A DNA stretch of 64,000 nucleotides from Actinophytocola gossypii (GTDB lineage Bacteria > Actinomycetota > Actinomycetes > Mycobacteriales > Pseudonocardiaceae): contig NZ_JAFFZE010000006.1 of assembly GCF_025165815.1 (NCBI RefSeq), positions 310,001 through 374,000 of the forward strand, given 5' to 3'. Of this stretch, positions 30,547-51,581 are shown in pieces. Position numbers and translations under genes: made by a program. Under the pieces are notes generated by a model. The model saw only the letters and a program-made list of their open reading frames with translations, had not been told where the DNA came from and did not search any database. Each line of letters begins with the position of its first letter. Position 1 is the stretch's first letter.

Positions 30547-30548
30547 CC

Positions 30549-30741
30549 CCGCGAGTCGTACCTTCCCGTCGCGCGAGTCGTACGTTCCGGTCGCGCGAGT
30601 CGTACGTTCCGGTCGCGCGAGTCGTACGTTCCGGTCGCGCGAGTCGTACGTTCCGGTCGCGCGAGTCGTACGTTCCGGGAGCGTACGACTCGCCGGACGG
30701 GAGCGTACGACTCGCCGGACGGGAGCGTACGACTCGCGAGG
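30549..30741. repeat. Head-to-head 22-bp repeat array, locus 1
   Basis: Six direct copies of a 22-bp unit with core GCGAGTCGTACGTTCC (GAGTC starts at 30553, 30575, 30597, 30619, 30641, 30663) are followed by three inverted copies (GTACGACTC at 30683, 30705, 30727). Period is exactly 22 bp and there are no spacers. The array fills the space between two converging stop codons (30544-30546 and 30742-30744), and both ends start at a similar distance from the TGA. The whole folds as a long imperfect hairpin in either transcript. Confidence 0.9.
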
Positions 30742-33558
30742 TCAGGGGAGCAGGGTGTCGGGGTCGTCGAGGAGGGCGGCGAAGGTGTGGCGGGCGGGCC
30801 AGTGGGCGGTGGCCCAGGCCAGGGCGCGGGCCAGGCCGGCGGTGGTGTCGGTGCAGTGCACGACGCCGCCGTCCACCCACCAGGGGACCTCGTGGTCGAT
30901 CAGGCCGATGCGGACGGTCAGGCGCTCGTGCACGATCGGTCCGCCGGGTGGGACCGGGACGCCGACCAGGTCGCACGCGTCGACCACCGCGCCGAGGTCG
31001 GTCCAGGCGACCGGCTCCGCGCGCTCACGGACCACGCCGACGACCACCTCGGTGGCCAGGGGCAGGTCGAGCAGGTCGGCCAGGGGCTCGGCTAGGTCGA
31101 AGTCGAGGCCGACGGTCACCGCGCGCTCGGGAGCCAGGACACCCAGCACCCATGGCGCGTCGAGCACCACACCCTCGGCGGCCGGCAGCACGGCGCCGGT
31201 GAGCGTGCGGACCGCGATCGGGGCCTCGACCTCGTCGGCGGCGACGTCGCCGTCGCGTACGGCCCTGGCCAGGGCGGCGTGGGCGCGCATCGTCGCCCCG
31301 GCACCGACCGGGCGGTCCGCGTCGGCCAGGCGGTCGAGCAGGTCCTCCGCGTCGGCCGGGTCGGTGACGTCGAGGTGGTCGCGGACGCCGACGGCACGCA
31401 GCACGGACGGCGCCAGGTCCGGCGGGGCCGCGTCGTACAGGCCGGCCAGGGCGTCGGCGTCCGGCATCCGCAGCGTGCGCGGCGGCTGCCCGTCGAGCAG
31501 GGCGTGCCGGCCGATCCACCAGCCGGTGTAGCCGTGCGGCTCGTGCAGGGCCTGCCAGGTCTCCGGACTCGCCGCCAGCAGCGCCAGCACGGCCGGCCAG
31601 GCGTCGTCGGCGACCAGGTCGAGGTCGCGCACCGCGGTCATCCGGGTCGGCGGCTCGGGCAGCGACTCCCACCAGTCCTGCTCGTCGGCGAGGTCGTGGT
31701 CCGGCCCGGCCGGTGACTCGTCGACGACGACGGCGAACGTGTCGAGCACGCCGACCGCGGTGAGCACGTCCCTGGGCCAGGCGCGCGCGGTGTCGTCGGC
31801 CAGGACGCCGAGCGGGGTGTCCTCGTCGAGCAGGTCGAGCAGGGGAGAGTCGGGCAGGGCCAGTTCGTCGGCGCGGCGCCAGTCGCCCGCGCTGTCGCGG
31901 AGGGCGAGGGCCGCGAGCCAGGGGCGTTCGCCGGGGCGGGCGCCGGTCGCGTCGACGAGCGCCCGGACCGATTCGTGCAGGTCCGTGAGGTCCATGCCGG
32001 ACTCGGCGTCGTCGACGCTGCGTTCCACGTCGTCGCGCAGGGAGTCGAGCAGGTCGTGCGCACCGCCGCGGCGGGCACCGAGGCGTTCGAGCAGCGGGTG
32101 CGCGGCGTCGGGATGCACCGCGTCACCGATGGCGACGGCACCGAGGTCGGCGTCGATCAGCAGGGCGCCGCGCGGGCCGGGGATCGTGCGGCCGTCGACC
32201 ATCGGCACCGGGAGCGCGCCGAGGGCCTCCCGCGCGTCGGCGTCGACCTCGGCGAGCGGGGCCAGGGCGTCGTAGAGCCGGTGCCACCAGGCCGGGTCGC
32301 GGTCGATCCCGGTGACGGCGGCGACGAGGTCGGCGGCGTGCAGGCGCCTGGTGTCGAGCGCGGCGAGGGCGGCGGCGTGCTCGGGCGCGGCGAACTCGGC
32401 GGTGACCAGGCCGGGGACGACGTCGGCGAGCAGGTCGGCCAGGGCCGGGCTGTCGACGGGCAGCAGGGCGGCCGCGGCGGGGGAGACGGGGTCGCCGGTC
32501 GGGCGGGGGAGCCAGGGGGTGGCGCGGAGCGCGCCGAGGACGCCCTGGCGGAGCTTGTCGTCCACTTCGGACAGTGGGAAATCGGGGAGCGGTACCAGGT
32601 TCGTGCGCGCGGCGGGTTCGAGGTGGTCGAGCAGGCGGGGGTAGGCGCGGATCGCGGCGTCGAGCACGAGGTCGGTGGCGGGGCCGGGGGCGACGCGGCG
32701 GCGGGTGGTCTCGACCGGGAGGGTGGCTATCAGCCTGGCGGGCAGGGAGAGCCGCTCGTCGGTCGGCGTCGGCGCGTGCAGGACCGGGTGCTCGGCGCGG
32801 TCCGTGCTGTACGCCCAGCAGATTGTCCACTGTGGACGCTGTTCGGTGGCGGCGACCAGGTTCGCGGGCAGTTCGCCGGAGTCGCGGACGGTGACCCAGC
32901 GGGTGACGCCGTCCGGCGCGTGCAGTTCGTCGCCGTCCCGGTGCCAGACGCGGTCGCCGATCTCGACCCGGGTGAGGCCGTCGAGGGACAGCAGCAGGTC
33001 GACGGCCTGGTCGGCGAACTCGTCGAGCAGGGCGGCGGGGTCGACGTCGTCCCGCAGCGGCAGCCGGACCTCGGTGTCGAAGCCGTCCGGCGGGGGCTCG
33101 TCGGTCGGCCAGGGGAGCCGGAGGACGGGGACGCGGCCGGTGACGTCCGCGGCCTCCCGGGTGCGCTCGGCGGAGAACGCGACGCCGCCGGTCCGGGACA
33201 CCACGCGGGGCGCGTCGGTCACGGTGAGCACCGCGGCGAACCCGACGCCGAACCGCCCGACGCCGTCACGTTTGGCGGACGCGCGCAGGGAGGCGAGCGA
33301 GGCGACCCCGTCGCGGTCCAGCGGTGTGCCGGTGTTGGCGACCCGCAGCTCCCGGTCCACCACGGACACCCGGAGCCGGGCGTCCTGCCCGGCGGCGTCG
33401 GCGGCGTTCTGGGCGAGCTCGACGAGCAGGCGGTCGCGGTAGCCGCCGAGGTAGAGATCCTCCTCGGCGTTGGCGTCCTCGCGGAACCGGGTGGGCGAGG
33501 ACGCCCAGGAGGAGAGCACGGCGTGCCGCAGCCGCGCGGTGTCGAAGGGGTCGTTCAC
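30742..33558 (-). CDS. Sacsin/Hsp90-like GHKL ATPase-domain protein
   Basis: 938-residue protein with an N-terminal sacsin/Hsp90-type ATP-binding domain. The N-box is ELAQNAADA near residues 43-51, the G1-like segment is VANTGTP and the G2-type loop is GRFGVGFAAVL near 108. The remaining 650 residues, mainly acidic with Leu/Asp/Pro patches, match no domain I recognise. Such proteins are widespread in actinobacteria but uncharacterised; a chaperone-like or DNA-related ATPase role is possible. GTG 33558 overlaps the DUF3027 stop (GTGA), so the two are translated together. The 3' end abuts repeat array 1. Confidence 0.82.
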   Translation of the reverse strand: MNDPFDTARLRHAVLSSWASSPTRFREDANAEEDLYLGGYRDRLLVELAQNAADAAGQDARLRVSVVDRELRVANTGTPLDRDGVASLASLRASAKRDGVGRFGVGFAAVLTVTDAPRVVSRTGGVAFSAERTREAADVTGRVPVLRLPWPTDEPPPDGFDTEVRLPLRDDVDPAALLDEFADQAVDLLLSLDGLTRVEIGDRVWHRDGDELHAPDGVTRWVTVRDSGELPANLVAATEQRPQWTICWAYSTDRAEHPVLHAPTPTDERLSLPARLIATLPVETTRRRVAPGPATDLVLDAAIRAYPRLLDHLEPAARTNLVPLPDFPLSEVDDKLRQGVLGALRATPWLPRPTGDPVSPAAAALLPVDSPALADLLADVVPGLVTAEFAAPEHAAALAALDTRRLHAADLVAAVTGIDRDPAWWHRLYDALAPLAEVDADAREALGALPVPMVDGRTIPGPRGALLIDADLGAVAIGDAVHPDAAHPLLERLGARRGGAHDLLDSLRDDVERSVDDAESGMDLTDLHESVRALVDATGARPGERPWLAALALRDSAGDWRRADELALPDSPLLDLLDEDTPLGVLADDTARAWPRDVLTAVGVLDTFAVVVDESPAGPDHDLADEQDWWESLPEPPTRMTAVRDLDLVADDAWPAVLALLAASPETWQALHEPHGYTGWWIGRHALLDGQPPRTLRMPDADALAGLYDAAPPDLAPSVLRAVGVRDHLDVTDPADAEDLLDRLADADRPVGAGATMRAHAALARAVRDGDVAADEVEAPIAVRTLTGAVLPAAEGVVLDAPWVLGVLAPERAVTVGLDFDLAEPLADLLDLPLATEVVVGVVRERAEPVAWTDLGAVVDACDLVGVPVPPGGPIVHERLTVRIGLIDHEVPWWVDGGVVHCTDTTAGLARALAWATAHWPARHTFAALLDDPDTLLP

Positions 33559-34967
33559 CCGTCCGCCGGCCGTTGCCCGGTGCTGTCCTCCGGCCCGTCG
33601 GTCTCCCGCACGTCGGTCTCGGTGGTGACGAGGGGTTCGAGCGGCGCCGCGGGCTCGGCCTCCGGCGGAGGCTCCGGGGAGGATGCGGACGCGAGCGCCC
33701 CCTCGGACGCAGGCTCGGCCTCTGGCTCGGGCGCGGCCTTGGACGCGGCCTTGGACGCGGACTCCGACGCGGACTCCGACGCGGACTCGACCTCGGATGC
33801 GGACTCGGACGCGGGCTCGGACGCGGACGAGGACGAGGACGAGGGCCTCGGCGAAAGCTCGGCCTCCGGCGAAAGCTCGGCCTCCGGCGAGGACGTGGGG
33901 TCGGCCTCGGACGCGGGCTCCGGTGCGGGCGCGGCCTCGGGTGCGGCCTTCGGTGAAGGCGAGGGCGAGGGCTCGGTCTCCGGGGAGGATGTCGGCGCGG
34001 CCTCGGACGCGGATTCCGGTGCGGGCGCGGCCTCGGGTGCGGCCTTCGGTGAAGGCGAGGGCGAGGGCTCGGCCTCCGGGGAGGATGTCGGCGCGGCCCC
34101 GGACGCGGATTCCGGTGCGGGCGCGGCCTCGGGTGCGGCCTTCGGTGAAGGCGAGGGCGAGGGCTCGGCCTCCGGGGAGGATGTCGGCGCGGCCTCGGAC
34201 GCGGGCTCCGGCGTGGGCAGGGGCTCCACGTCCAGTTGGGCGTCGTCGTAGATGAGGTTGGCTACGAGGACGGGGGAGACCTGCTCTACCTCTGCTTCGG
34301 AGTGGGCGCCGCAGCCGTACTCGACGTGTACCACGTGTGCGTCGGCCGGGGACATCTCGTTGCCGCAGGTGCCGAAGGCCGCCCGGAGCGAACCCGCCAG
34401 TGGCAGGTAGAAGCCGCACGTCCCGCACTGGCCGGGCGCCGAGCGGGCCATGTCCGACCGCGGGCCGAACTCGCCGTTGCGCCACCGCGACGCGGCGTCC
34501 TCGCGCGCCGGTCGCGCCATCACCCTGGTCCGGCCGAGGCCGACCTCACGGGCGACCTCCTCCACCGCGGGATCGTCGGAGGCCAGGTACGCGGGCACCA
34601 GCCGAGGATCGTCCGGCGCCGCCGGCAGCAGGTCGCCGACCCCGAGGTCGCCGGCCTGGACCCGGCGCTCCCACGGCACCCAGTCCGGCGCGACCAGCGC
34701 GTCCGGGCCGGGCAGCAGGACGACCTCGCTGACCGTCGCGTCCGTGTCCGGGCCCGCGCTCGCGACCGTCGCCGCCCAGCGCCAGCCCCGGTAGCCGGGC
34801 TTGTGCGCCTCGAACAGGTGGGTGACGGCCGAATCGCCGTCGATCTGCGCGCCGACGTGCGCGCCGACCTCCTCGTCGCCCGCCTCCTGCTGGGCGGCGG
34901 CGCGCGCGAGGTCGACCTCCGCGACCAGCGCGGGGTCGTTCAGCTCGTCGGTCTGCGGCACACTCAT
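33555..34967 (-). CDS. DUF3027 protein with C-terminal 32-residue tandem repeats
   Basis: 470-residue protein. The N-terminal 240 residues are the DUF3027 domain (GYRGWRWAATVA, LVPAYLASDDPAVEEVARE) with a Cys pair region (GQCGTCGFYLPLAGSLRAAFGTCGNE ... EYGCGAHSEA), suggesting zinc binding. The C-terminal 230 residues are acidic Ala/Pro/Ser/Glu repeats of 32 residues. ATG 34967 is used. It overlaps the sacsin-like ATPase downstream and is divergent from the glutaminyl cyclase. The repeats are probably a disordered arm of variable length between strains. Confidence 0.85.
   Translation of the reverse strand: MSVPQTDELNDPALVAEVDLARAAAQQEAGDEEVGAHVGAQIDGDSAVTHLFEAHKPGYRGWRWAATVASAGPDTDATVSEVVLLPGPDALVAPDWVPWERRVQAGDLGVGDLLPAAPDDPRLVPAYLASDDPAVEEVAREVGLGRTRVMARPAREDAASRWRNGEFGPRSDMARSAPGQCGTCGFYLPLAGSLRAAFGTCGNEMSPADAHVVHVEYGCGAHSEAEVEQVSPVLVANLIYDDAQLDVEPLPTPEPASEAAPTSSPEAEPSPSPSPKAAPEAAPAPESASGAAPTSSPEAEPSPSPSPKAAPEAAPAPESASEAAPTSSPETEPSPSPSPKAAPEAAPAPEPASEADPTSSPEAELSPEAELSPRPSSSSSSASEPASESASEVESASESASESASKAASKAAPEPEAEPASEGALASASSPEPPPEAEPAAPLEPLVTTETDVRETDGPEDSTGQRPADG
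33889..34272 (-). repeat. Four 96-bp tandem repeats inside the DUF3027 gene
   Basis: Unit starts (GAGGAYGTSG) fall at 33889, 33985, 34081 and 34177, a period of exactly 96 bp or 32 codons, so copy changes keep the frame. The three right-hand copies are almost identical, pointing to recent duplication. Confidence 0.85.
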
Positions 34968-35006
34968 CACAGACGATTGTGCCGTACGCATGTGAGGCTG
35001 GTTCCC

Positions 35007-35798
35007 GTGAGGGCTCCGTTGACGCTCGTCGCCCTGTTGCTGGTCACCTCGTGCGCCGCCACCCCGCGCGCCGAGACGCCGCCGCCCGCCGCCGCCGACA
35101 CCCTGCGCCCCGAGGTGATCGAGGTCCGCCCGCACGACCCGACCGCGTTCACCCAGGGCCTCGAACTCGCCGACGGCGTCCTCTACGAGGGCACCGGGCT
35201 GGAGGGCCGCTCGGCCATCCGCGCACTCGACCCGGAGACCGGCGAGGTGCGGCGGGCGGAGGCGCTGCCGGGCGACGTCTTCGGCGAGGGCATCACCGTC
35301 GTCGGCGACACGATCTGGCAGCTGACCTGGCGGGACGGCATCGCGTTCCGGCGCGACCGGGCGACCCTCGCCGAGCGGGACCGCGTCTCCTACGAGGGCG
35401 AGGGCTGGGGCCTCTGCCACGACGACACCCGGCTGGTGATGAGCGACGGCACCGCCGAGCTGACCTTCCGCGACCCGGACACCTTCGCCGAGACCGGCAG
35501 CGTCGAGGTCCGGGACGAGGCCGGGAACCCGGTCCAGCGGCTCAACGAACTCGAGTGCGTGGACGGCGCCGTCTACGCGAACGTCTGGCAGACCGACCGG
35601 ATCGTGCGGATCGACCCGGCCACCGGCGACGTCACCGCGACCGTCGACCTCACCGGCCTGCTGCCCGAAGAGGACAGCGCCGGCGCCGACGTGCTCAACG
35701 GGATCGCCGCCGTCCCGGGCACCGACCGGTTCCTGGTGACCGGGAAGCTGTGGCCGAAGATGTTCCTGGTGAGGTTCGTCACCGGTGACGACGGGTGA
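35007..35798 (+). CDS. Secreted glutaminyl-peptide cyclotransferase (plant-type QC), lipoprotein
   Basis: 263-residue enzyme that makes N-terminal pyroglutamate. The signal peptide and lipobox (LLVTSC) end near Cys14. The mature part is the five-bladed plant-type QC propeller: FTQGLELADGVLYEGTGLEG at the active site, then EGEGWGLCHD and LNELECVDG and IAAVPGTDRFLVTGKLWPKMF. GTG 35007 has GAGG about 9 nt upstream; GTG 34992 is a longer option. It is divergent from DUF3027 (start 34967), and the MFS gene follows 55 bp later. Confidence 0.9.
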   Translation: MRAPLTLVALLLVTSCAATPRAETPPPAAADTLRPEVIEVRPHDPTAFTQGLELADGVLYEGTGLEGRSAIRALDPETGEVRRAEALPGDVFGEGITVVGDTIWQLTWRDGIAFRRDRATLAERDRVSYEGEGWGLCHDDTRLVMSDGTAELTFRDPDTFAETGSVEVRDEAGNPVQRLNELECVDGAVYANVWQTDRIVRIDPATGDVTATVDLTGLLPEEDSAGADVLNGIAAVPGTDRFLVTGKLWPKMFLVRFVTGDDG

Positions 35799-35853
35799 AA
35801 TCCCCAGCACGAGGGCCTGGTTCCGGCTCCGGAACCGGTCGAAGTACGGCAGG

Positions 35854-37794
35854 ATGGACGGCGTGATTCGTTCCGGTTCGGGTGAGGAGGAGTCGGAGGG
35901 CCGCCGTGGCCGCTCCCGCTCCGGCCGGAAGCGCCGCCGCTGGACCGACCAGCCGCAGCCGTCGATCCAGAACCCACCTCCGCCCCCGCCGCCGTCCCCG
36001 AAGCCGCCGACCGCGCGCTACCAGGCACCCCCGCCGCCGCCCCGGGACGAGCCGCGCGAGGAGCCGCTGACCAACGCGATCCCGCTGCCGCCGCGCGAGG
36101 AACCGCTCACCAACGCCATCCCGACGGCGAGCCCCTACCCGCCGGACCAGCACCGCACCCGCCCGGTCCACCACGAGCCGCCCCAGCCCGCTCCGCAGTG
36201 GGCACCGCCCCAGCCGACGCAGCGGCGCAACTGGCGTGACGTGCCCCCGCCGCGCCGCCACCTGCCGCCGCATCCCCAGCCGACCCGGCGCGAGGAGTTC
36301 CCCGAGACCTACGGCCCGGACGGCTACGCCCGTCAGCCCGGCCAGGAGCACGAGCCCCCGCCGGAGCACCCGGCCGCCGCGCCGCAGTACCCCAAGAAGC
36401 TCACCGTCACCCGTGTCGCCGCGCTGCGCGGCCGGGAGCTGACCGGCAAGGCCGTGTCCGCGTTCCGCCGCGCCGCGAACGCCGACGGCGCCGACAAGTC
36501 CGGCCTCACCTCGCTCACCTACGCCACGATGCTCAACTACGCCAGCGACGCGGCGATGGCCGTGGCACTGGCGAACACGCTGTTCTTCTCCGCGGCCAGC
36601 GCCGACTCCAGCCGCGGCAAGGTCGCCCTGTACCTGCTGATCACGGTGGCGCCGTTCGCGCTGGTGGCGCCGGTCATCGGCCCCGCGCTCGACCGGATCC
36701 AGCGCGGCCGCCGGCTCGCGATGTGCGCGACGTCGGCCGGGCAGGCGCTGATGTGCGTGGTCATGGCGCTGAACTTCGACTCCTGGCTGCTCTACCCCGC
36801 TGCGCTGGGCAAGATGGTGATGTCCAAGTCGTTCACGGTGCTCAAGGCGGCGGTCACGCCGAGGGTGGTGCCGCCGGACATCACGCTGGCCAAGACCAAC
36901 GCCAGGCTGACCGTGTTCGGCCTGGCCGGCGGGGCCGCGTTCGGCGCGGTCGCGACGCTGGTGCTGCAGCTGTTCGGCTCGCCGGGCGCGCTCTGGTTCA
37001 CCGCCGCGATCTGCGTGTTCGGCGCGTTCCAGGCGATGCGCATCCCGGCCTGGGTCGAGGTCACCGAGGGCGAGGTGCCGGCGTCGCTGTCGGCCAACCC
37101 GCAGCAGCCGAAACGACAACCCATGGGCCGACATGTGGTCGTCGCGTTGTCCGGCAACGCGACGATCCGGATCCTCACCGGGTTCCTGATGATGTTCGCC
37201 GCGTTCGCGGTGCGCGCGCAGACCGAGGGCGACCCGTTCATGCAGCTGCTGCTGCTCGGCGTGATCGCCGGCGCGGCGGGGGCGGGCAGCTTCATCGGCA
37301 ACGGGATCGGCGCGCGGATGCACCTGGGGCACCCCGAGCAGGTGGTGCTGGGGTGCATCGCGGGCTGTCTGGCGTCGACGGTGGTCGCGCTGCTGATGGA
37401 GGGGATCGGGACCGCGGCGATCGTCGGGCTCGTCGGTGCCACGGCCAGCGCGCTGGCCAAGAACAGCCTGGACGCGGTGATCCAGGACGACCTGCCGGAG
37501 GAGTCCCGAGCGTCGGCGTTCGGCCGGTCGGAGACGGTGCTGCAGCTGGCGTGGGTGTTCGGCGGGGCGGTCGGCGTGCTGCTGCCGCCGACGTTCTGGA
37601 TCGGGTTCCTGGTGGTGTCGGTCCTGCTCGCGCTCGGGCTGGCCCAGACCATGCTGACCAGGAAGGGCGCGTCGCTGCTGCCGTGGTTCGGCGGCAACCG
37701 CACGGTCCGGCCGCCCCGGACGCCGACCGCGCCGGGAACGCCGGCCGCCGCGTTCCAGGAGGGGCCGCCGAGCGGGTCGGAGGAGCGCACGTAG
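35854..37794 (+). CDS. MFS-type membrane protein with long Pro-rich N-terminal arm
   Basis: 646-residue transporter-like protein. Residues 1 to about 190 form a basic then Pro/Gln/His-rich disordered arm containing a short repeat (REEPLTNAIP appears twice). The rest has about 11-12 membrane helices with an MFS layout (LLITVAPFALVAPVIGPALDRIQRGRRL). The role is unknown; relatives pair with DUF2771 lipoproteins, as here 10 bp downstream. ATG 35854 is preferred (AGG just upstream); a GTG at 35785 would overlap the QC stop, and GTG 35863 would shorten it by three codons. Confidence 0.82.
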   Translation: MDGVIRSGSGEEESEGRRGRSRSGRKRRRWTDQPQPSIQNPPPPPPPSPKPPTARYQAPPPPPRDEPREEPLTNAIPLPPREEPLTNAIPTASPYPPDQHRTRPVHHEPPQPAPQWAPPQPTQRRNWRDVPPPRRHLPPHPQPTRREEFPETYGPDGYARQPGQEHEPPPEHPAAAPQYPKKLTVTRVAALRGRELTGKAVSAFRRAANADGADKSGLTSLTYATMLNYASDAAMAVALANTLFFSAASADSSRGKVALYLLITVAPFALVAPVIGPALDRIQRGRRLAMCATSAGQALMCVVMALNFDSWLLYPAALGKMVMSKSFTVLKAAVTPRVVPPDITLAKTNARLTVFGLAGGAAFGAVATLVLQLFGSPGALWFTAAICVFGAFQAMRIPAWVEVTEGEVPASLSANPQQPKRQPMGRHVVVALSGNATIRILTGFLMMFAAFAVRAQTEGDPFMQLLLLGVIAGAAGAGSFIGNGIGARMHLGHPEQVVLGCIAGCLASTVVALLMEGIGTAAIVGLVGATASALAKNSLDAVIQDDLPEESRASAFGRSETVLQLAWVFGGAVGVLLPPTFWIGFLVVSVLLALGLAQTMLTRKGASLLPWFGGNRTVRPPRTPTAPGTPAAAFQEGPPSGSEERT

Positions 37795-37804
37795 TCTCGC
37801 TGTC

Positions 37805-38293
37805 GTGCGTCTCGTCGTTCTTGTGGTGGCCGGGTTGCTGCTGGTCGGGTGCGGGCAGTCGGAGCCGCCGCCGGAGGACCCGGAGGTCGCCTTCACCGTC
37901 GGCGACACCGAGGTCAGCGCGAAGCCGTACCTGTACTGCGACGTGCAGGTGCAGGACTGCAAGCGGGACAACACCGCGCAGGTCAGTCTGGAGGTCGCGC
38001 CCGGGACGCCGGTGCTGGTGACCGTGCCGGACGAGGTCGCCAAGACCCCGTGGTCGGTGGTCATCCAGTACAAGACCGGAGCCGGCGAGCAGAAGGCCCC
38101 CGAGACCGTGGCCACGTTCGCCCCCGGCAAGGCGACCACCTTCGAGGCCCTGCCGCCCGGCGCGGGCGCCCAGCTGCAGACCGTCGAGGTCAAGCAGGCG
38201 GGCGCCAAGCTCGTCCGCGACGACAAGGGCGAACCGGCCGCCGTGTCCCGTGGCGTCTGGTCCGCCCAGATCGAGGCTCCGGCGAAGCCCTGA
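37805..38293 (+). CDS. DUF2771 lipoprotein
   Basis: 162-residue lipoprotein: hydrophobic leader and lipobox LLVGC with Cys16, then a compact Ig-like domain typical of DUF2771 (YLYCDVQVQDCK, then VTVPDEVAKTPWSVVIQY). Two extra cysteines may form a disulfide. GTG 37805 lies 10 bp after the MFS gene stop. The family is actinobacterial and of unknown function; the tight link suggests an accessory role for the MFS protein. A strong terminator overlaps its stop codon. Confidence 0.88.
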   Translation: MRLVVLVVAGLLLVGCGQSEPPPEDPEVAFTVGDTEVSAKPYLYCDVQVQDCKRDNTAQVSLEVAPGTPVLVTVPDEVAKTPWSVVIQYKTGAGEQKAPETVATFAPGKATTFEALPPGAGAQLQTVEVKQAGAKLVRDDKGEPAAVSRGVWSAQIEAPAKP

Positions 38294-38337
38294 AGGTGGC
38301 CTTCGGGACGCTCGGCGTCTCGAAGGCCACCTTCAGG
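38289..38337. terminator. Bidirectional intrinsic terminator
   Basis: 17-bp perfect stem (38289-38305 with 38321-38337) capped by a further GACGC/GCGTC 5-bp stem with a 3-nt loop after one mismatch. It lies between DUF2771 (+) and the cold-shock gene (-) and overlaps the DUF2771 stop codon. Confidence 0.9.
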
Positions 38338-38340
38338 ACA

Positions 38341-38727: not shown

Positions 38728-38925
38728 AACGACTCACCTCCACACAGACGAACGCGCCCCAGGGCGTACCCAGGACGCGTCCGTCCAGCCTATGCCAACC
38801 AGTCTGCCAGGGGGTAGCCGGTTTGTCCGCCAGCGGCTGCGCGCGAACGCCACGAGGCGGCCAGGTCGTTGCGGAGTGGGTCACCAGCCCGCGCTTTCGT
38901 GCACAGCGTCGCGACCCGTCGGAGG

Positions 38926-43735: not shown

Positions 43736-43851
43736 GGTCGGACCTCCCCTCGCCGGACGGGGGAAGTCCGGCGTGTGCGCGGGAGTACCAACGGTTACAT
43801 ACCCGTGAACCCTCAAGCTAGGGGCCAAAAAGGTGCACTACGACACGTCGG

Positions 43852-43892
43852 TTGTTACGCACTGCTAAACATGCGCTGGTGCGACGTAACAA
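43852..43892. promoter_or_regulatory. Interrupted palindrome in GCL-SpoU divergent promoter region
   Basis: TTGTTACG (43852-43859) and CGTAACAA (43885-43892) form an exact 8-bp inverted repeat, with GCAC/GTGC inside that extends pairing after a 2-nt bulge. The element lies about 40 bp before the SpoU start and 117 bp before the GCL start in a 197-bp divergent region. It could be an operator for both genes or a leader stem in the plus-strand transcript. Confidence 0.4.
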
Positions 43893-43932
43893 GCCGGCGG
43901 GTATGTCCGGGCGGCTCCCGCACTGTGGGACC

Positions 43933-44739
43933 ATGCGCCGTGTGATCGAGGTGCGGGACCCGGACGACGAGCGACTGGACGACTTCCGCGCCCTCACCAC
44001 CGCCGACCGCCGGCCCGACCGCCCGGGCGGGCGCGGGTTCGTGATCGCCGAGGGCGTGGTCGTGGTGCGGCGTCTGCTCGCCTCCCGCTACCCGCTGCGC
44101 GCGGTGCTCGGCGTGCCGCGCCGGATCGAGGAGCTCGCCGGCGACCTGGCGCCGCACACCGCGCCGGTGTACGCGACGTCGGCGGAGGTGATGGCCGAGG
44201 TCGTCGGGTTCCACCTGAACCGGGGCGTGCTGGCGGTCGCCGACCGGCCGGTGCCGTGGACCGCCGAGGATGTGGTGGCCGACGCGCGGCGGCTGCTGGT
44301 GCTGGAGGGCGTCGGCGACCACGAGAACCTGGGCTCGCTGTTCCGCAACGCGGCCGCGCTCGGCGTCGACGGCGTGCTGCTCGGGCCTGGCTGCTCGGAC
44401 CCGCTGTACCGGCGCAGTGTGCGGGTGTCGATGGGGAACGTGCTCGCGGTGCCGTTCGCGCCGTTGGAGCCGTGGCCGGTCGGACTGAAGTGGTTGCGGG
44501 ACAAGGGTTTCACCGTACTGGCGATGACCCCGGCGGCGGGCGCGGTGCCGGTCGGGGAGTTCGCCGGCGCCGCGCGGGTGGCGTTGCTGCTCGGGTCGGA
44601 GGGGCCCGGGCTGACCGCCGACGCGGTGGAGGCGGCGGACGCGGCGGTGCGGATCCCGATGGCGGACGGGGTCGACTCGCTGAACGTGGCCACCGCGGGG
44701 GCGGTCGCCTGCTACGCGCTCGGCGGTGCGGATGGCTGA
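43933..44739 (+). CDS. SpoU/TrmH-family RNA methyltransferase
   Basis: 268-residue SPOUT enzyme that 2'-O-methylates rRNA or tRNA. It has an N-terminal L30e-like substrate-binding domain and the knot motifs DHENLGSLFRNAAALGVDGV, LLLGSEGPGLT and IPMADGVDSLNVATAGAVACY near the C-terminus. ATG 43933 is favoured over an upstream in-frame ATG. It overlaps the DUF2537-like gene by 8 bp. M. tuberculosis Rv0881 has the same class and neighbour (Rv0882). Confidence 0.92.
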   Translation: MRRVIEVRDPDDERLDDFRALTTADRRPDRPGGRGFVIAEGVVVVRRLLASRYPLRAVLGVPRRIEELAGDLAPHTAPVYATSAEVMAEVVGFHLNRGVLAVADRPVPWTAEDVVADARRLLVLEGVGDHENLGSLFRNAAALGVDGVLLGPGCSDPLYRRSVRVSMGNVLAVPFAPLEPWPVGLKWLRDKGFTVLAMTPAAGAVPVGEFAGAARVALLLGSEGPGLTADAVEAADAAVRIPMADGVDSLNVATAGAVACYALGGADG

Positions 44740-45325
44740 CGGGGTGCTGTTGCGGATCGAGGGGGAGCGGGCGGTGCTGGTCGGTCGCGACGGCACGGCC
44801 GAGCGCGCGGTCGACCCGCGCCGGCTGCCGTTGGGCGCGGAGCTGACCGAGGCACTGCACGAGTGGGCACGGGTGGCGACCGCGGTCGGCCGGGGCGAGC
44901 AGGAGGCTGGTGCGGCCGCCGGGGCGGTGGTCACCCGCCGGGGACTGCAGCTCGCGGGCCGGGTGGCGGCGACGATGGGGGTGCCGGTCGGCTACCAGGA
45001 CCCGCTGACCGGCGAGCAGCACACGGTCGAGCCACGGCCGGAACCGGCGCGGCCGGTTCGTTCGGCGGAGCCGACGCCGTGGCTGACCGGGCTCACGGTG
45101 TCGGCGGTGAGCCTGGTGCTGGTGCTGATCACGGTGGTCACCCTGGCCGCGACCCTCGCCGAGACGCACGCGCTGCTGGCGGTGGCGTCGAACGTCGTGG
45201 TCACGGCGGGGCTGCTGCCGTCACTGTGGCTGGTGCGCCGGCAACCGGTGTGGCGCTGGGTCGCCTACGGCGTGGCCGCCGCGATCGCCATGGCCTGGCT
45301 CGCGCTCCCGTTCATCCTGGTGTGA
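44732..45325 (+). CDS. DUF2537-like membrane protein
   Basis: 197-residue protein. The first 115 residues are hydrophilic, with a small N-terminal beta-rich part; three membrane helices follow (GLTVSAVSLVLVLITVVTLAATL, VASNVVVTAGLLPSLWLV, VAYGVAAAIAMAWLALPFIL). It follows the SpoU gene with an 8-bp overlap, as Rv0882 follows Rv0881 in M. tuberculosis. ATG 44732 is chosen over GTG 44726. Function unknown; DUF assignment is by position and topology. Confidence 0.72.
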   Translation: MADGVLLRIEGERAVLVGRDGTAERAVDPRRLPLGAELTEALHEWARVATAVGRGEQEAGAAAGAVVTRRGLQLAGRVAATMGVPVGYQDPLTGEQHTVEPRPEPARPVRSAEPTPWLTGLTVSAVSLVLVLITVVTLAATLAETHALLAVASNVVVTAGLLPSLWLVRRQPVWRWVAYGVAAAIAMAWLALPFILV

Positions 45326-45462
45326 AGGCGTCGCCCTGGCGAGCGGTCATGGCCGGCGTGGTCCTCGGCGCGACCCTGCTGATCGGCGCCGTCGCGGGCC
45401 CGTACCCGGCGATGCGCGCCGCCCGCCTGTCCCGCACCGAGGCCTTCGCCCCGTCCGGCTGA
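45322..45462 (+). pseudogene. C-terminal remnant of an FtsX/MacB-like ABC permease
   Basis: A 46-codon frame from GTG 45322 to TGA 45462: a membrane helix (VVLGATLLIGAVAG) followed by PYPAMRAARLSRTEA, the hallmark last-helix and tail of FtsX/MacB-type permeases (P-x-x-RAARLxxxEALR). No upstream part of the permease is found; the DUF2537-like gene directly precedes it and overlaps by 4 bp. It is the stump of a lost gene, with the rest deleted. Confidence 0.6.
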
Positions 45463-45474
45463 GGTGCGCCGCAC

Positions 45475-46017
45475 TCACCACGGGTGTCGGGGTTGCCAGG
45501 CAGCCGGCGGCGGCATGGGGCGGGCCCGGGCCGCCCGCTTGACCGCGAGTCCCCGGGACACCCCGGGCAGGCACCACAGCACCATCAGCGCGAGGAACGG
45601 GACGAGGAACACCAGCCCCCACATGGTGTTCGAACCGCCCTCGAGCGCGCCGTGCACCACCACGCCCATCGGCCCGAGCATCAGGAGCACGCAGAGCACC
45701 CGGGGCCACTGCCGCCCGGTCGCGGTGAGCAGCGCGCACACGCCGAGCAGGGCGATCGCCGCCACGGTGACGTACATGACGATGATCAGGGTCTCGTTGT
45801 ACGCGATGGCCTCCGCGCCGCCCTTGAGTCCCTTGCCGTCGCCGGACGCGCGGCTCGCCACGCCGTCGTACCGCTCCAGGAGCTTCACGTTGTCGTGCAT
45901 CTGGACGACCCGGAGCGTGGCGACCGCGGTCAGCAACACCGACACGACGACGGTGATCCACTTGGTGGTCGTCAGCATGCGGGTCGACGGCGGTGCCGGC
46001 GGCGCGTGGTGGTACAT
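45475..46017 (-). CDS. Four-helix membrane protein of unknown function
   Basis: 180-residue membrane protein: helices near residues 18-40 (TKWITVVVSVLLTAVATLRVV), 75-98, 105-125 and 130-150, with an external loop between the first two (NVKLLERYDGVASRASGDGKG). No named domain is recognised. ATG 46017 is taken; an ATG 13 codons later is possible. It is downstream of the xylanase on the same strand with 77 bp between. It lies between the FtsX stump and the xylanase, a segment with no mycobacterial counterpart, so it may be acquired. Confidence 0.65.
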   Translation of the reverse strand: MYHHAPPAPPSTRMLTTTKWITVVVSVLLTAVATLRVVQMHDNVKLLERYDGVASRASGDGKGLKGGAEAIAYNETLIIVMYVTVAAIALLGVCALLTATGRQWPRVLCVLLMLGPMGVVVHGALEGGSNTMWGLVFLVPFLALMVLWCLPGVSRGLAVKRAARARPMPPPAAWQPRHPW

Positions 46018-46094
46018 GAATCCCTCCCGGTTCCCGGCGAGCCTAGGGACGCCGGGACCGGGAGGGGGTCAGGTGAACACCCGACAGCGCGGGT

Positions 46095-47039
46095 TCAGTT
46101 CGCGCTGCAGGAGACCGTCGGCCAGTTCCAGTTGCCGTTGTGCTGGATGGTGACGCCCCAGTTGTTGCCGTTGCCGTTGGGTCTGGCGACGAGCTGTTGC
46201 GCGCTCGGCCAGTTCGCGTCGATGTTCCAGGTCGCGATGATCGTCGCCGGCGAGGGCACGTTCATCGTCACGGTCCAGTTGTTGGCGCCGGAGACCGCGA
46301 CGTTGAGGTTGTACCGGTCGCTCCACCGGTCACCGGCCGACAGCGACGCCGTGCAGTCACCGCCGCCCGGGTCACCGCCGCCGGGGGTGCCGCCGACGGT
46401 GATGTTGGAGCTCCCGCTGCTCTGGTAGCCCTCGGTGGCCATGATCATGTAGTCGTGGTTGCCCAGGTTCATGCCGTGCCTGGCCCACGCGTCGAAGTGG
46501 TTGCCGGAGGTGATGGAACCGCCGGTTCGCTTGGCCTGGCGCACGCTCCAGTACTGCGGGAACGTCCGGATGCCGTCGATGGACGGGGCGTCGTAGCGCA
46601 TCGTGCGGTAGATGTCGTAGGTGCCGCCGTCGCTGGTGACGGTGCCCTGGTACTCGCCGGTCGGCCGGTAGGTGCCCCAGTTGTCGACGATGTAGTACTC
46701 GACGAGCGGGTTCCTGGTCCACCCGTAGAGGGTCAGGTACGAGTTGCCGGACGGGTTGAAGCTGCCCGAGTAGTTCACCGTCCGGCGCCCGCCGGTGCTC
46801 CAGCCCTTGCCGGCGACGAAGTTCCCGGTGTTGCGCCACGAGGTGCTGTAGTTCCCGCCGGAACCCAGTTCCATCGAGACGGTGCCCTGGCTGTCGGTCC
46901 AGAACGAGTAGAAGTAGCCGCCGTGGTTGCCGGTCTGGTTCTCGGTGACGGCGGCGTGGGCGATGCCGGGGGACACGGCGAGGCCCGCGGCCAGCGCCAC
47001 GACGCCGAGTCTGGTGAGGAGCCGTCTGGCACGGTTCAT
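46095..47039 (-). CDS. Secreted GH11 endo-beta-1,4-xylanase with CBM2
   Basis: 314-residue plant-cell-wall-degrading enzyme. A basic-hydrophobic signal peptide ends near Ala-His-Ala (residue 29). The GH11 jelly-roll domain spans about 33-215, with nucleophile Glu114 in PLVEYYIVD and acid/base Glu203 in [11 protein letters not shown] Gly/Thr/Pro linker ([12 protein letters not shown]) leads to a CBM2 module (about 228-314) with N- and C-terminal Cys and surface Trp residues. ATG 47039 follows a plausible promoter. GH11 catalytic domains are near 185 aa, as here. It cleaves xylan outside the cell. Confidence 0.96.
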
Positions 47040-47082
47040 ACGTGTTTCCTCCTCGTCGAGGAACGCGGTGGGGGTGCCAGTC

Positions 47083-47125
47083 AGTGTTGGTTCGGTCGCG
47101 CCGAGTTGTCAAAGATTTTCAGAAA
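47083..47125 (-). promoter_or_regulatory. Xylanase promoter with TTTCTGAAA operator-like palindrome
   Basis: On the minus strand TTGACA (47112-47107) and AACACT (47088-47083) are separated by 18 nt. Just upstream lies the exact palindrome TTTC-T-GAAA (47117-47125), reminiscent of GAAA/TTTC sites near actinomycete xylanase genes. The -35 is perfect, the -10 is weak. Confidence 0.5.
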
Positions 47126-47243
47126 CGTTGCGGTAGCCAATCGCGTCTTCTGGCGCGTCTTGCCTGCTCAACCAGGCCCGGCGTGGGACGCAGGGCCTGG
47201 CTCGTCGAGCTGTTTCGAGCGCTGATTTCCGGTACTTTTCGGC

Positions 47244-49082
47244 CTACGCCAGTGACTCCAGCCAGGTCCGGTGCAGGGCGGCGAACCGGCCGCCGGACGG
47301 GTGTGCGATCAGCTCCTCCGGGGAGCCGTCCTCCACCACCCGGCCGCCCTCCACCACCAGCACGCGGTCGGCGATCAGCACCGTCGACAGGCGGTGCGCG
47401 ATGATCAGCGCCGTCCGGTCGGCCAGCACCGACTCCAGCGCGCGCTGCACCGCCCGCTCGGTCGGCACGTCCAGGCTGGACGTCGCCTCGTCCAGCACCA
47501 GCACCGCCGGGTCGGCCAGGAACGCCCTGGCGAACGCCACCATCTGCCGCTGCCCCGCGGACAGCCGGCCGCCGCGCTTGCGCACGTCGGTGTCGTACCC
47601 GTCGGGCAGCGCGCGGATGAACTCGTCCGCACCGACCGCCCGCGCCGCCGCCTCGATCTCCGCCCGGCTCGCGGACGGGCGGCCGAGACCGATGTTGTCC
47701 GCGACCGAGCCGGCGAACAGGAAGTTCTCCTGCGTCACCGTGACCACCGCGCGCCGCAGCTCCGCGTCGGCCACCGCCCGCAGGTCGACGCCGTCCAGCG
47801 CGACCGTGCCGACCGGCGGGTCGTAGAACCGGGCCACCAGCTTCGCCAGCGTCGACTTGCCCGCGCCGGTCGCCCCGACCAGCGCCACCGTCTGGCCGGC
47901 CGGGATCGTCAGGTCGAACTCCGGCAGCACCACCGGCCCGGCCGGCGAGTACCGGAACTCCACGCCGGCGAACGTCACCGCGCGCCCGGTGCCGGCGGCC
48001 GGCAGCGCGACCGGGGACTCCGGGTCGACCACGGTCGGCCGCTCCTCCAGCACGCCGGAGATCTTCTCCAGCGCCGCGATCGCCGAGGTGTAGGAGTTCG
48101 CGAACATCGCCAGCTCGTCCAGCGGGTCGTAGAACCGCCGCAGGTACAGCATGAACGCGGTCAGCACGCCCAGCTCAAGGCCGCCGTTCACCACCCGCAC
48201 CGCGCCGATCACCAGCACCAGCGCGAGCGACAGGTTCCCGACCAGCCGCACGGTCATGGTGAACGTGGCCATCACGTCCAGCGCGGTCTTGTTCGCGCGC
48301 CGGAACTCGTCGTTCAGCCCGGCCAGGATCCGCTCGTTGCGCGGCTCCCGGCGGAACGCCTGCACCGCACGCATCCCGTTCATCGTCTCCACGAACTGGA
48401 CGATGATCTTCGCGATGGCGCCTCGGGTGCCGCGGTAGGCGTGCCGCGAACGCAGGTAGAACCAGCGCGTCACCCACAGCACCGGGATCAGCCCGGCCAG
48501 CACCAGCAGACCGAGCGGCGGGTCGAGCACGAGCAGCACGACCGCGATGCCGAACACCGACAGCACCGCGGTCAGCAGCCCGTCGAGGCCGTCCTCGAGC
48601 AGGTCGTGCAGCGAGTCGATGTCGCTGGTCAGCCGCGAGATGACCTTGCCGGAGGTGTACTTCTCGTGGAACGACAGCGACAGCCGCTGCGCGTGGTCGA
48701 ACACCCGCCGGCGCAGGTCGAGCAGCACGTCCTGGCCGAACCGGCCGGACACCTTCAGGAACGCGAACCGCAGCGCGGCGGCGCCGAGCCCGGAGCCGAG
48801 GTAGCCGCCGACGCACCAGGCGAGCGCGGCGGTGTCGCCGTCCAGCGCGTTCGGGATGCCGGTGTCGATGGCGACCGCGATCAGCACCGGCCCGGCGAGC
48901 GTCAGCGCGTTCTCGGCGATCACCAGCAGCAGGGCGAACAGACCGGTGCCAAGCCGGGGGCGCACCAGCGAGCCGAGCAGCACGCGGGAGCGCCTCTGCA
49001 GCCGGGCGCCGACGATCGCGTCGAGTTCCTCGACGTCCTCGGCGGCGACCCCGCGCCACTGCTCCTCGTCGGTCGTGCTCAC
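47244..49082 (-). CDS. Heterodimeric ABC exporter subunit with canonical ATP site
   Basis: 612-residue half-transporter: six membrane helices (residues about 40-330) fused to an ATPase. Walker A is GATGAGKST, the signature is LSAGQRQ (RLSAGQRQMVAFARAFL), Walker B ends in VLVLDEATSSLD with the catalytic Glu, and the switch His is in IAHRLST. It pairs with the coupled upstream gene, whose Walker B is altered. GTG 49082 overlaps that gene's stop (GTGA). Such pairs (TM287/288, LmrCD-like) export drugs, lipids or peptides; the cargo is unknown. Confidence 0.93.
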   Translation of the reverse strand: MSTTDEEQWRGVAAEDVEELDAIVGARLQRRSRVLLGSLVRPRLGTGLFALLLVIAENALTLAGPVLIAVAIDTGIPNALDGDTAALAWCVGGYLGSGLGAAALRFAFLKVSGRFGQDVLLDLRRRVFDHAQRLSLSFHEKYTSGKVISRLTSDIDSLHDLLEDGLDGLLTAVLSVFGIAVVLLVLDPPLGLLVLAGLIPVLWVTRWFYLRSRHAYRGTRGAIAKIIVQFVETMNGMRAVQAFRREPRNERILAGLNDEFRRANKTALDVMATFTMTVRLVGNLSLALVLVIGAVRVVNGGLELGVLTAFMLYLRRFYDPLDELAMFANSYTSAIAALEKISGVLEERPTVVDPESPVALPAAGTGRAVTFAGVEFRYSPAGPVVLPEFDLTIPAGQTVALVGATGAGKSTLAKLVARFYDPPVGTVALDGVDLRAVADAELRRAVVTVTQENFLFAGSVADNIGLGRPSASRAEIEAAARAVGADEFIRALPDGYDTDVRKRGGRLSAGQRQMVAFARAFLADPAVLVLDEATSSLDVPTERAVQRALESVLADRTALIIAHRLSTVLIADRVLVVEGGRVVEDGSPEELIAHPSGGRFAALHRTWLESLA

Positions 49083-50854
49083 GCGACCACCTCGCTGCGT
49101 TCGTCGTCCAGTGTGGACAGCAGGGCGCGGTACTCCGGGTTGGTGGCGAGCAGTTCCGAGTGGGTGCCGACGGCGGCGATCCGCCCCCCGGACAGCAGCG
49201 CGACCCGGTCGGCGAGCTGCACGGTGCTCGGCCGGTGCGCGACGACCAGCGCGGTCACGTCCCGCAGCACGCTGCGCAGGGCCTGCTCGACCTCGGCCTC
49301 GGTGTGCACGTCCAGCGCGGACAGCGGGTCGTCGAGCACCAGCACCGACGGCCGGCCGACCACCGCGCGGGCGAGCGCGAGCCGTTGCCGCTGCCCGCCG
49401 GACAGCGACAGCCCCTGCTCGCCGATGCGGGTGTCCAGGCCCCACGGCAGGTTCTCGACGAACTCCGTCGCCGACGCGACCCGCAGCGCCTGCCGCACGT
49501 CGTCCTCGGTGACGTCGGCGCCGCCGCCGAGCGCGATGTTCTCCCGCACGCTCGCGGAGAACAGCACCGGCTCCTCGAAGGCGGTGGCCACGACCTCACG
49601 CAGCCGGGCCAGTTCCAGGTCGCGCACGTCGACCCCGTCGATGGTGACCCGGCCCGAGGTGACGTCGGCGAGCCGCCCGACCAGCGCGGTCAGCGTCGTC
49701 TTGCCGGACCCGGTGGCACCGACCAGCGCGACCGTCTCACCGGGACGGACGTCGAGCGTGACCCCGCGCAGGGTCTCGCCGTCGGAGCCCGGGTAGGCGA
49801 AGTGCACGTGGTCGAACCGCAGGTGCCCGGTGGCGCTGGGCAGCCGGCGCGGCCGGTCCGGGTCGGTGATCGTGACCGGCGCGTCCCGGACCTCCCAGTA
49901 GCGGATGGCGGCGGTCGCGGCCTGGTTCGACTCGGCCAGCAGCCAGCCGATGGAGTCGGTCGGCCAGCGCAGGTAGGTGGCGACGGCGACCGCGGCGACC
50001 ATGGTGCCGAGCGTCATGGTGCCGTCGGTGATGGCGAAGGCGCCGTAGAGCAGGTGACCGCCGATCGCGATCTCCGGCAGCATGATGATCGCCGCCCAGA
50101 GCAGGCCGATGACGTGCACCTTCCGCAGTTCCGTCCGCCGGAGTTCCCGCGCCTGCGCGGCGAACGTCCCCGCGAGGTGCGGCCCGCGCCCGAACGCCTT
50201 GAGCACCCGGATGCCCAGCACGGACTCCTCGACGGTCGTGGCGAGGTCGCCGTTCTGGTCCTGCGCGCGGCGGGCGAGGACGGCGTACTTCGACTCGTAC
50301 AACGTCGAGATGAGCACGAGCGGCAGGGAGCACAGTGTGGAGATCGTCCCCAGCACCGGATCCAGCACGAACAGCACCACGAGGCCCAGCACGAGCGTCA
50401 GGCTGTTCACGATCAGGAAGATGAACGCGAACGCGATGAACCGCCGCAGGGTGGAGAGGTCGGACACCGCACGCGAGAGCAGCTGTCCGGACTGCCACCG
50501 GTCGTGGAAGCTGATCGGCAGCCGCTGCAGGTGCCGGTACAGATCGTCCCGCAGCTCGGCTTCGATGCGCGTGCTCGGTCCGGAGATGAGCCGCCGCCGG
50601 ATGAAGAAGAACAGCGCCTCGCCCGCGCCGAGCGCCCCGACCGCCGCGATCAGCCAGCCGAGCCCGCTCGTGTCGCCGTCGGCGACGGGCCCGTCCAGAA
50701 TCCGCTGGACGACCAGCGGAATCGTGAGCCCGCAGACCATCGAGGCGAGCACGGCCGTGCCCGAGCCGATCATGCGGGCGCGGACGGGTCGGAGGTAGGG
50801 GGCGAGCCGGCGCAGCGCGGCGATGTTCTGGCCGCGATCCTTAGTGTTGGTCAT
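49079..50854 (-). CDS. Heterodimeric ABC exporter subunit with degenerate ATP site
   Basis: 591-residue half-transporter, six helices then ATPase. Walker A is GATGSGKTT, the signature is LSLSGGQRQRLALARAVV, and Walker B is VLVLDDPLSALD, so the catalytic Glu is Asp. The switch His is present (VAHRPST). A single degenerate site is typical of asymmetric exporters. It starts at ATG 50854 and overlaps the partner gene by 4 bp. The promoter is in the 114-bp divergent gap before the 50969 gene. Confidence 0.93.
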   Translation of the reverse strand: MTNTKDRGQNIAALRRLAPYLRPVRARMIGSGTAVLASMVCGLTIPLVVQRILDGPVADGDTSGLGWLIAAVGALGAGEALFFFIRRRLISGPSTRIEAELRDDLYRHLQRLPISFHDRWQSGQLLSRAVSDLSTLRRFIAFAFIFLIVNSLTLVLGLVVLFVLDPVLGTISTLCSLPLVLISTLYESKYAVLARRAQDQNGDLATTVEESVLGIRVLKAFGRGPHLAGTFAAQARELRRTELRKVHVIGLLWAAIIMLPEIAIGGHLLYGAFAITDGTMTLGTMVAAVAVATYLRWPTDSIGWLLAESNQAATAAIRYWEVRDAPVTITDPDRPRRLPSATGHLRFDHVHFAYPGSDGETLRGVTLDVRPGETVALVGATGSGKTTLTALVGRLADVTSGRVTIDGVDVRDLELARLREVVATAFEEPVLFSASVRENIALGGGADVTEDDVRQALRVASATEFVENLPWGLDTRIGEQGLSLSGGQRQRLALARAVVGRPSVLVLDDPLSALDVHTEAEVEQALRSVLRDVTALVVAHRPSTVQLADRVALLSGGRIAAVGTHSELLATNPEYRALLSTLDDERSEVVA

Positions 50855-50968
50855 GATCTCCCCATCAGTGCCCGTCGACGGTAGGCGAACGGGCCGGGCG
50901 CGGGCATCTGGTTTTCGAGCCTGCGACCTCGAGTGCGGTGGAGGTCAAGGACGCGGGATCATTCCCAC

Positions 50969-51214
50969 ATGACGCGACCGGAGCCGGTGCGTTTCCTGCG
51001 CACCGAGTCATCGATGGCCTTCCCCGACGGCCGCCTCCTGGCCCTCCGCGACGGCCAGCTACACGTCCTGGCCCCGGACGGCTGGACCCGACTGCGATCC
51101 ACCCGCCCACCCGGCACCACCTGGCTGACCCGAGAAGAAGCCGAAGACTGGTGCGACCGCGAAGGCTGGAACCTCCACCTACTGGACGAGGTCCCCACCA
51201 CCCGCACCGTCTGA
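50969..51214 (+). CDS. Small hypothetical protein
   Basis: 81-residue soluble protein (TRPEPVRFLRTESSMAF ... WLTREEAEDWCDREGWNLHLL), beta-rich at the start with an acidic Trp-rich C-terminal helix. No domain recognised. ATG 50969 is chosen from codon use. It is divergent from the ABC exporter and its TGA is followed directly by repeat array 2. Confidence 0.62.
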   Translation: MTRPEPVRFLRTESSMAFPDGRLLALRDGQLHVLAPDGWTRLRSTRPPGTTWLTREEAEDWCDREGWNLHLLDEVPTTRTV

Positions 51215-51581
51215 CCCGCGAGTCCTACGTCCCCATCGCGCGAGTCGTACGTTCTCGTCGCGCGAGTCGTACGTTCTCGTCGCGCGAGTCGTACGTTCTC
51301 GTCGCGCGAGTCGTACGTTCCGGGTGCGCGAGTCGTAGATTCCGGGTGCGCGAGTCGTAGATTCCGGGTGCGCGAGTCGTAGATTCCGGGTGCGCGAGTC
51401 GTACGTTCCGGAGCGTTGGACTCGCCGGACGGGAACCTGGGCTCGCCGGACGGGAGCGTACGACTCGCCGGACGGGAGCGTACGACTCGCCGGACGGGAG
51501 CGTACGACTCGCCGGACGGGAGCGTACGACTCGCCGGACGGGAGCGTACGACTCGCCGGGCGGGAGCGTACGACTCGCGAG
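51215..51581. repeat. Head-to-head 22-bp repeat array, locus 2
   Basis: Nine direct copies (GAGTC starts 51220, 51242, 51264, 51286, 51308, 51330, 51352, 51374, 51396) then eight inverted copies (GACTC or variant at 51419, 51440, 51462, 51484, 51506, 51528, 51550, 51572), period 22 bp. The core is the same as at locus 1 (GCGAGTCGTACGTTC). Direct copies vary at the tail (TTCTCGTC, TTCCGGGT, AGATTCCGGG) in runs, showing amplification of neighbours. It lies between converging genes (stop 51212-51214 and sepH end 51617). The remaining 35 bp to 51616 hold nothing recognised. Confidence 0.9.

Follow-up and report, generated by a model that had tools for sequence, protein, structure and literature searches.

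Two arrays between converging genes and the family they belong to

The window analysed here is the whole 64,000-nucleotide stretch of contig NZ_JAFFZE010000006.1 (positions 310,001 to 374,000 of the forward strand) of Actinophytocola gossypii, assembly GCF_025165815.1, and it holds two arrays of a short repeat with a 22-bp period, in each of which direct units on the left face inverted units on the right. The original prediction, made from the letters, had counted 6+3 and 9+8 units, and these numbers are borne out, core matches with three or fewer mismatches occurring 25 times in the window compared with a mean of 1.36 and a maximum of 5 in 100 shuffles. The period, predicted to be exact, is 22 bp throughout both arrays save for one 1-bp loss near 51432. 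As was also proposed, each array lies between converging genes, a DUF2530 gene and a gene for 938 amino acids at array 1 and an 81-amino-acid open reading frame (ORF) and a DUF3071 gene at array 2.

30316..30546, plus strand: DUF2530 gene (Pfam 76.9 bits, cut-off 25.5), its TGA stop inside the left edge of array 1
30543..30548, plus strand: edge box CTGACC enclosing the DUF2530 stop codon (sequence)
30551..30676, plus strand: array 1, six direct 22-bp units (core matches)
30678..30737, minus strand: array 1, three inverted 22-bp units (core matches)
30740..30745, minus strand: edge box CTGACC enclosing the stop of the right-hand gene (sequence)
30742..33558, minus strand: converging gene for 938 amino acids, with one weak Pfam match (sacsin domain) below the cut-off
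50969..51214, plus strand: converging 81-amino-acid ORF, without Pfam match
51211..51216, plus strand: edge box CTGACC enclosing the stop of the 81-amino-acid ORF (sequence)
51218..51409, plus strand: cores of array 2, nine direct 22-bp units (core matches)
51410..51578, minus strand: array 2, eight inverted 22-bp units, one of which is degenerate, with one 1-bp loss
51615..51620, minus strand: CTGACC enclosing the DUF3071 stop codon, 37 bp off array 2
51617..52999, minus strand: converging DUF3071 gene (Pfam 217.3 bits), which we take by name to be SepH

The minus strand of array 2 comprises seven cores with up to three mismatches and one more degenerate copy. Its right end lies 40 bp before the DUF3071 stop, and not a few bases before it. 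A frame resembling the 81-amino-acid ORF also opposes the DUF3071 gene in the same-genus genome G004 (by eye; genomes and contigs are given by our labels where they need telling apart). No Rfam match was found in the window at gathering scores.

The observation is confirmed as real and extends far beyond the 64-kb window. Allowing one mismatch, the core GCGAGTCGTACGNTCC occurs 271 times in the 7.4-Mb A. gossypii genome, 140 times forward and 131 times reverse, while the reversed pattern used as a control gave 0 forward and 1 reverse. Among 120 relatives there were 0 to 7 copies per genome, with at least one in 51 and none in the five same-genus genomes included. A relaxed dimer, consisting of GAGTNNTNCGTT twice, 6 to 14 bases apart and with the variable bases left open, was found in 37 of 297 family genomes and at up to 215 places in one of them, its control matching in no listed genome; among the places listed the array period was 22, with a single exception of 21. 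This pattern also gave nothing in the five same-genus genomes. Since the same-genus genome G005 carries, behind the TetR gene discussed below, an array of 22-bp period that is spelled GAGTCCAACACTG and has no relaxed-dimer match, diverged arrays escape such counts. A 22-bp dimer with one mismatch matched one of 396 phylum genomes, namely A. gossypii, in a draw that held no visible further genome of the family; its control matched once, in another genome.

A scan of genome contigs gave at least 101 stretches, the 80 listed coming from Saccharothrix, Amycolatopsis, Lentzea and one metagenome contig (L149), which was put aside as its match looks unrelated; the three genera identify the family as Pseudonocardiaceae. 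The labels were matched to Saccharothrix carnea (G206), S. deserti (G343), Saccharothrix sp. NRRL B-16314 (G321), Saccharothrix sp. S26 (G262), S. yanglingensis (G191) and sp. NRRL B-16348 (G339). In other genomes, most arrays were detected by a pattern in which the majority of core bases are fixed, the dialect base (see below), core base 6 and the linker being free, and the conservation of the core is therefore partly ascertained. After removal of 16 copies of a single array, 234 of the 250 arrays were left for comparison. Against plasmids, one of two array queries gave a partial 75% match (Embleya) and the second none. No report on this 22-bp family was found among the papers listed for the core string, its complement or words, subscription journals being poorly covered. 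In Amycolatopsis suaedae, a same-strand gap (L180:4100-4600) contains a 22-bp array together with other short repeats whose spelling is related but not the same.

Carriage by phage was considered and rejected, as the 12 viral-contig stretches that match the relaxed dimer are all of low GC (0.34-0.45) and contain an unrelated repeat. These low-GC phage contigs, L436-L447, repeat GAACGGAGTACTCC at about 22 bp (e.g. L440:144-178). In L440 the repeat lies a short way past the start of a small-terminase gene (phrog_509, E 1.8e-72) and is possibly a packaging site within the gene.

Placement at gene ends and the stop-codon edge

Placement was examined in 47 stretches around array positions together with the window, which cover 230 of the 271 A. 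gossypii cores, with genes called by a codon-score script, not taken from annotation; one search scored 40 of 76 candidates. Convergent gaps hold 24 of the 52 arrays, same-strand gaps 19 and divergent gaps 4, and the remaining 5 are inside ORFs; with a second array finder the total was 50, of which 3 were divergent. These stretches also have 326 array-free gaps, of which 42 are convergent (mean length about 40 bp), 62 divergent and 222 same-strand, so that intergenic arrays show a marked convergent excess (24/47 against 42/326, p 3e-10), and by length they are depleted in divergent sequence (p 5e-7). The gene-end location thus holds genome-wide, and genes and divergent promoters do not hold copies at equal rates. 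Confinement to convergent gaps, on the other hand, does not hold, the same-strand, divergent and in-ORF arrays standing beside the convergent ones. Conserved proteins contain two of the five in-ORF arrays, one of three units in an ABC ATPase and one of four units in an Hsp70-like protein. At these sites the loop length differs between the protein itself and its relatives, which are too distant there for an empty-site comparison.

The arrays are classed among interspersed extragenic repeats. REP, BIME and REPIN elements are described as short extragenic repeats found mainly in convergent and same-strand gaps and downstream of ORFs, sometimes intragenic and often in inverted pairs (PMC3733652). 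Like them, the arrays are found in convergent or same-strand gaps in 43 of 47 intergenic cases. They differ in that their cores have no GTAG or CGTC tag before a stem, in that direct-unit arrays, taken together, show poor folding, and in having a 22-bp phase and a stop-codon edge. The arrays might accordingly be a dispersing repeat of REP-like behaviour and without host function, retained at the least harmful places (behind stop codons, between converging genes or in frame within loops) and homogenised by gene conversion or renewed spreading. We regard this as unlikely, though it would agree with the patchy presence of the arrays (37 of 297 family genomes) and with the existence of in-ORF copies. 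The mobiliser that such behaviour would suggest, a REP-type Y1 transposase (RAYT, PF01797), was found in 3 of the 32 genomes searched (G253, G308 and G343) and in 5 of 14 control genomes; it was not found in A. gossypii or in 28 of the 31 others, which speaks against it in this role and against the dispersing repeat. Rickettsia palindromic elements are also repeats able to sit in frame inside protein genes, a likeness to the in-ORF copies seen here, which differ in being a minority (5/52) and in taking the form of 22-bp tandem arrays.

Newly observed is an array edge, CTRACC, that contains the stop codon of the neighbouring gene. Sense-side arrays in A. gossypii begin 4-8 bp past the stop in 23 of 33 cases, and over all genomes the distance from stop to array is 3-14 bp at 143 of 214 sense-side ends. 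At these 143 close ends the base before the stop is C in 91%, compared with 45% at other genes, and the two bases after it are C in 94% each, compared with 43% and 51%. The stops themselves are TAA in 54, TGA in 86 and TAG in 3 cases at close edges, and TAA in 67, TGA in 1050 and TAG in 279 elsewhere (TAA 38% against 5%, TAG 2% against 20%), where a background gene is counted twice if its stretch has two arrays. Without double counting and outside A. gossypii, TAA makes up 51 of 182 stops near arrays and 34 of 938 in the background. In A. gossypii alone TAA is hardly raised (4/42 against 22/304) and TAG is 0/42 against 61/304, and the TAA excess therefore stems from the other genomes. Of the 62 close ends on antisense sides, 25 share bases with the stop, its last two letters being also the first two of the core.

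The gap behind the TetR gene allows a comparison of sites with and without an array. It is present in 29 of 30 genomes searched and is occupied by arrays in 12 of the 29, as well as in A. gossypii, G287 having a single inverted pair only. The TetR protein ends alike with and without an array, which implies that the arrays start at the native stop and leave the gene uncut; truncation of genes by arrays that provide a new stop was thus not seen at this gap. As regards an insertion element, which would show a target duplication or a clean empty site, these arrays start at the native stop; at the in-ORF sites relatives are distant and loop lengths variable. Gaps with arrays measure 105-328 bp (48 bp in G287). 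Where the next gene converges and there is no array, 11 of 14 gaps do not exceed 50 bp, the neighbours being other genes in some cases.

Geometry, amplification and folding of the arrays

In A. gossypii all 172 pairs of neighbouring cores on the same strand have a spacing of 22 bp, with a finder that favours 22. Inverted neighbours were allowed any spacing up to 60 bp, and a further new observation is that their centres have preferred spacings. In A. gossypii the centres of -+ junctions are 24 bp apart in 16 of 16 cases and those of +- junctions 16 bp apart in 10 of 14, array 1 of the window being among the latter. At named loci, mostly of Saccharothrix, the arms are composite, copies of GAGTCCTACGTTC often closing with one copy like GAGTTCAACGCTC, and the spacings are 19 bp in 13 of 17 -+ centres and 32-34 bp in 20 of 30 +- centres. 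Long G runs are found right behind an array or single copy in L100 (behind 3494) and L135 (behind 3521), and may be biological or an assembly effect.

The four linker bases past the core carry 0.9-1.9 bits in A. gossypii compared with 0.0-1.4 bits in seven Saccharothrix genomes, in a count that required GAGTC or GTGTC. In A. gossypii, 58 of 92 pairs of adjacent 9-bp linkers are identical, against a rate of 0.118 between different arrays. In two Saccharothrix genomes the corresponding values are 7/78 and 11/90 against 0.034 and 0.029, so that the neighbour-to-neighbour amplification suggested earlier is well seen in A. gossypii but weak in these two. Tandem amplification of identical neighbours would also be in keeping with a dispersing repeat. 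CRISPR is rejected, in agreement with the original prediction, there being 9-bp linkers and no unique spacers.

On either strand, arrays with units in both directions fold far better than shuffled sequence, with a median z of about -8 to -14, and for these the long hairpin that had been predicted is a fair description. It does not hold as a general rule. One-way arrays make up 28 of 51 multi-copy arrays in A. gossypii and 34 of 81 elsewhere, and as a group they fold poorly, with medians of -1.7 to -1.9 for the 28 and -0.2 to -0.8 for the 34; the A. gossypii unit is partly self-complementary, and single one-way arrays fold down to z -6.1. The poor folding of this large class makes it improbable that the arrays are bidirectional terminators that act as RNA hairpins and have grown in 22-bp steps. 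Such terminators would otherwise suit the folding of the two-way arrays, which span convergent gaps almost from stop to stop. They would also suit the stop pairs of 34 two-way convergent arrays (TAA-TAA 9, TGA-TGA 15, TAA with TGA 9 and one with TAG), the two edges of which tend to match (Fisher p 0.014 on 33 arrays), and the DUF3071 gene, behind which an array stands in A. gossypii and G301 but an ordinary GC-rich hairpin in several relatives (by eye). No T run was found behind the arrays on reading both window arrays, a further point against hairpin terminators.

One-way arrays in same-strand gaps are sense in 27 and antisense in 19 cases (8 and 6 in A. gossypii, 19 and 13 elsewhere). With these numbers no RNA strand is clearly preferred, and an element specific to the RNA sense is unsupported. 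Since one-way arrays neither fold well as a group nor clearly prefer a strand, the common denominator is an array of sites in double-stranded DNA, and not a hairpin or a sense RNA signal.

One-base dialects and a putative reader

The core comes in dialects that differ in the base before GAGTC and are characteristic of the genome, and arrays at orthologous gaps follow them, which is also new. C is used in A. gossypii (224/241), G191 (61/67), G315 (44/53) and G271 (30/32), T in G321 (101/110) and G308 (32/39), and A in G206, G219, G287, G339, G343 and S. luteola and, less strictly, in G262 (87/128). Of the 234 arrays, 60 form 25 groups in which both flanking genes are orthologous. The 26 of these (10 groups) that have a partner of different dialect carry the home base in 97 of 107 units and the partner's base in 8, and by majority 25 of the 26 match their own genome; counted separately, the largest group, that of the TetR gap, gives 8/8 and the other groups 17/18. 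Between genomes of different dialect, arrays differ at 1.77 of 16 positions from others of their own genome and at 3.07 from their ortholog, with 57 of 60 directed pairs (which are not independent) closer to their own genome. The +-/-+ layout is switched in 3 of 81 orthologous array pairs. The orthologous arrays may be old arrays altered in place, or the gaps may have been re-occupied.

Copying of whole repeats would make the linkers genome-specific as well. Comparing G321 with G262, the cleanest pair of genomes (116 units, 62 arrays), agreement at the dialect base is 0.74 within and 0.24 between genomes, while the linker positions are flat (within/between 0.56/0.56 at L1, 0.55/0.56 at L2, 0.43/0.43 at L3 and 0.45/0.43 at L4), which disfavours such copying as the sole cause of the dialects. 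That arrays match the dialect of their own genome while the linkers in this pair are nearly without genome signal argues for a reader acting in trans, and recognition by a site-specific DNA-binding factor, one of the roles suggested at the outset, is the reading that the dialect data favour. For a dispersing repeat the same comparison is unfavourable, as is the finding that orthologous gaps retain arrays whose spelling tracks the genome; the switched layouts would fit it.

We tentatively favour the explanation that the arrays are a stop-codon-anchored family likely to be read by a putative species-specific DNA-binding factor as a boundary at which transcription from either side would be stopped or kept separate. 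The reader would be a protein, a guide RNA being less likely, and would occupy neighbouring cores at a distance of about two helical turns. Its specificity would have changed from species to species, with selection bringing the sites into line. Arrays bound in this way may block or delay RNA polymerase at gene ends, and a roadblock or insulator between converging polymerases would fit their placement. Several findings weigh against this explanation. The in-ORF arrays, two of them in conserved proteins, argue against a strong block to transcription, and the very short or overlapping convergent ends of array-free relatives at the TetR gap imply that no boundary is needed there. Between genomes of the same dialect, an array is no more similar to the other arrays of its genome than to its ortholog (21 of the 44 directed pairs, again not independent). 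A weak genome signal is present at L6 in G321 against G262 (0.67/0.52), and linker signals appear at L3, L4 and L6 in G191 against G262 and at L1 and L4 in A. gossypii against G191 and G315. With some linker signal in these other pairs, repeat copying may contribute, as a dispersing repeat would have it.

Iterons of plasmid origins are likewise direct repeats about two helical turns apart on which a protein can bind side by side, the R6K iteron being 22 bp. The arrays differ from them in being dispersed over the chromosome, at 35 places in G315 and 22 in G287, and not gathered at one origin. With these Saccharothrix chromosomes treated as circular and the origin placed at dnaA, 2 of the 35 places (p 5e-6) and 2 of the 22 (p 0.002) lie in the 40% farthest from dnaA. 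The arrays are thus rare there, a bias that would fit a link to either the conserved core genome or position. Along the replichores of G315 the strands of the arrays look mixed (by eye).

A closer parallel for the dialects is found in the DNA uptake sequences (DUS) of Neisseriaceae. For these, a word that is uniform within a species, dialects between species, a tree of the reader ComP that is largely congruent with the dialects, and inverted pairs at terminators are described (PMC3630211). The arrays resemble DUS in having one word per genome and dialects between species, some array genomes such as G262 being mixed. Very many single 10-12-mers make up the DUS, compared with 271 cores here, mostly in tandem arrays, and where ComP is the reader of DUS that of the arrays is putative. 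That the arrays are marks of self DNA for exchange seems very improbable: species dialects, inverted pairs at gene ends and a stop codon within the word are all described for DUS (PMC3630211), but the copies here are hundreds in arrays and not thousands of single words, and they are rare far from dnaA.

Returning to the putative reader, it is possible, and held with slightly less confidence than the explanation favoured above, that a one-base shift in the specificity of a Pseudonocardiaceae factor is followed by arrays over the whole chromosome, giving each species its own code for gene ends. Co-varying iterated sites with a built-in stop codon point to an uncharacterised recognition system at gene ends. 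As the dialects are about one base apart and many arrays are orthologous, the pairing of reader and site could be tested by single-base swaps, and the co-evolution of a DNA reader with dispersed sites would become directly testable. If true, this would bear on how converging genes are kept separate in compact, GC-rich chromosomes.

Two other repeats were seen. An inverted element of about 120 bp recurs downstream of the DUF3071 gene in five genomes of the genus Saccharothrix (L245, L249, L250, L251 and L252; by eye), starting near GATTTGACATGGG and ending near its complement. In the window, positions 33868-34218 hold a 96-bp tandem repeat of 3.7 copies that are 93% alike.

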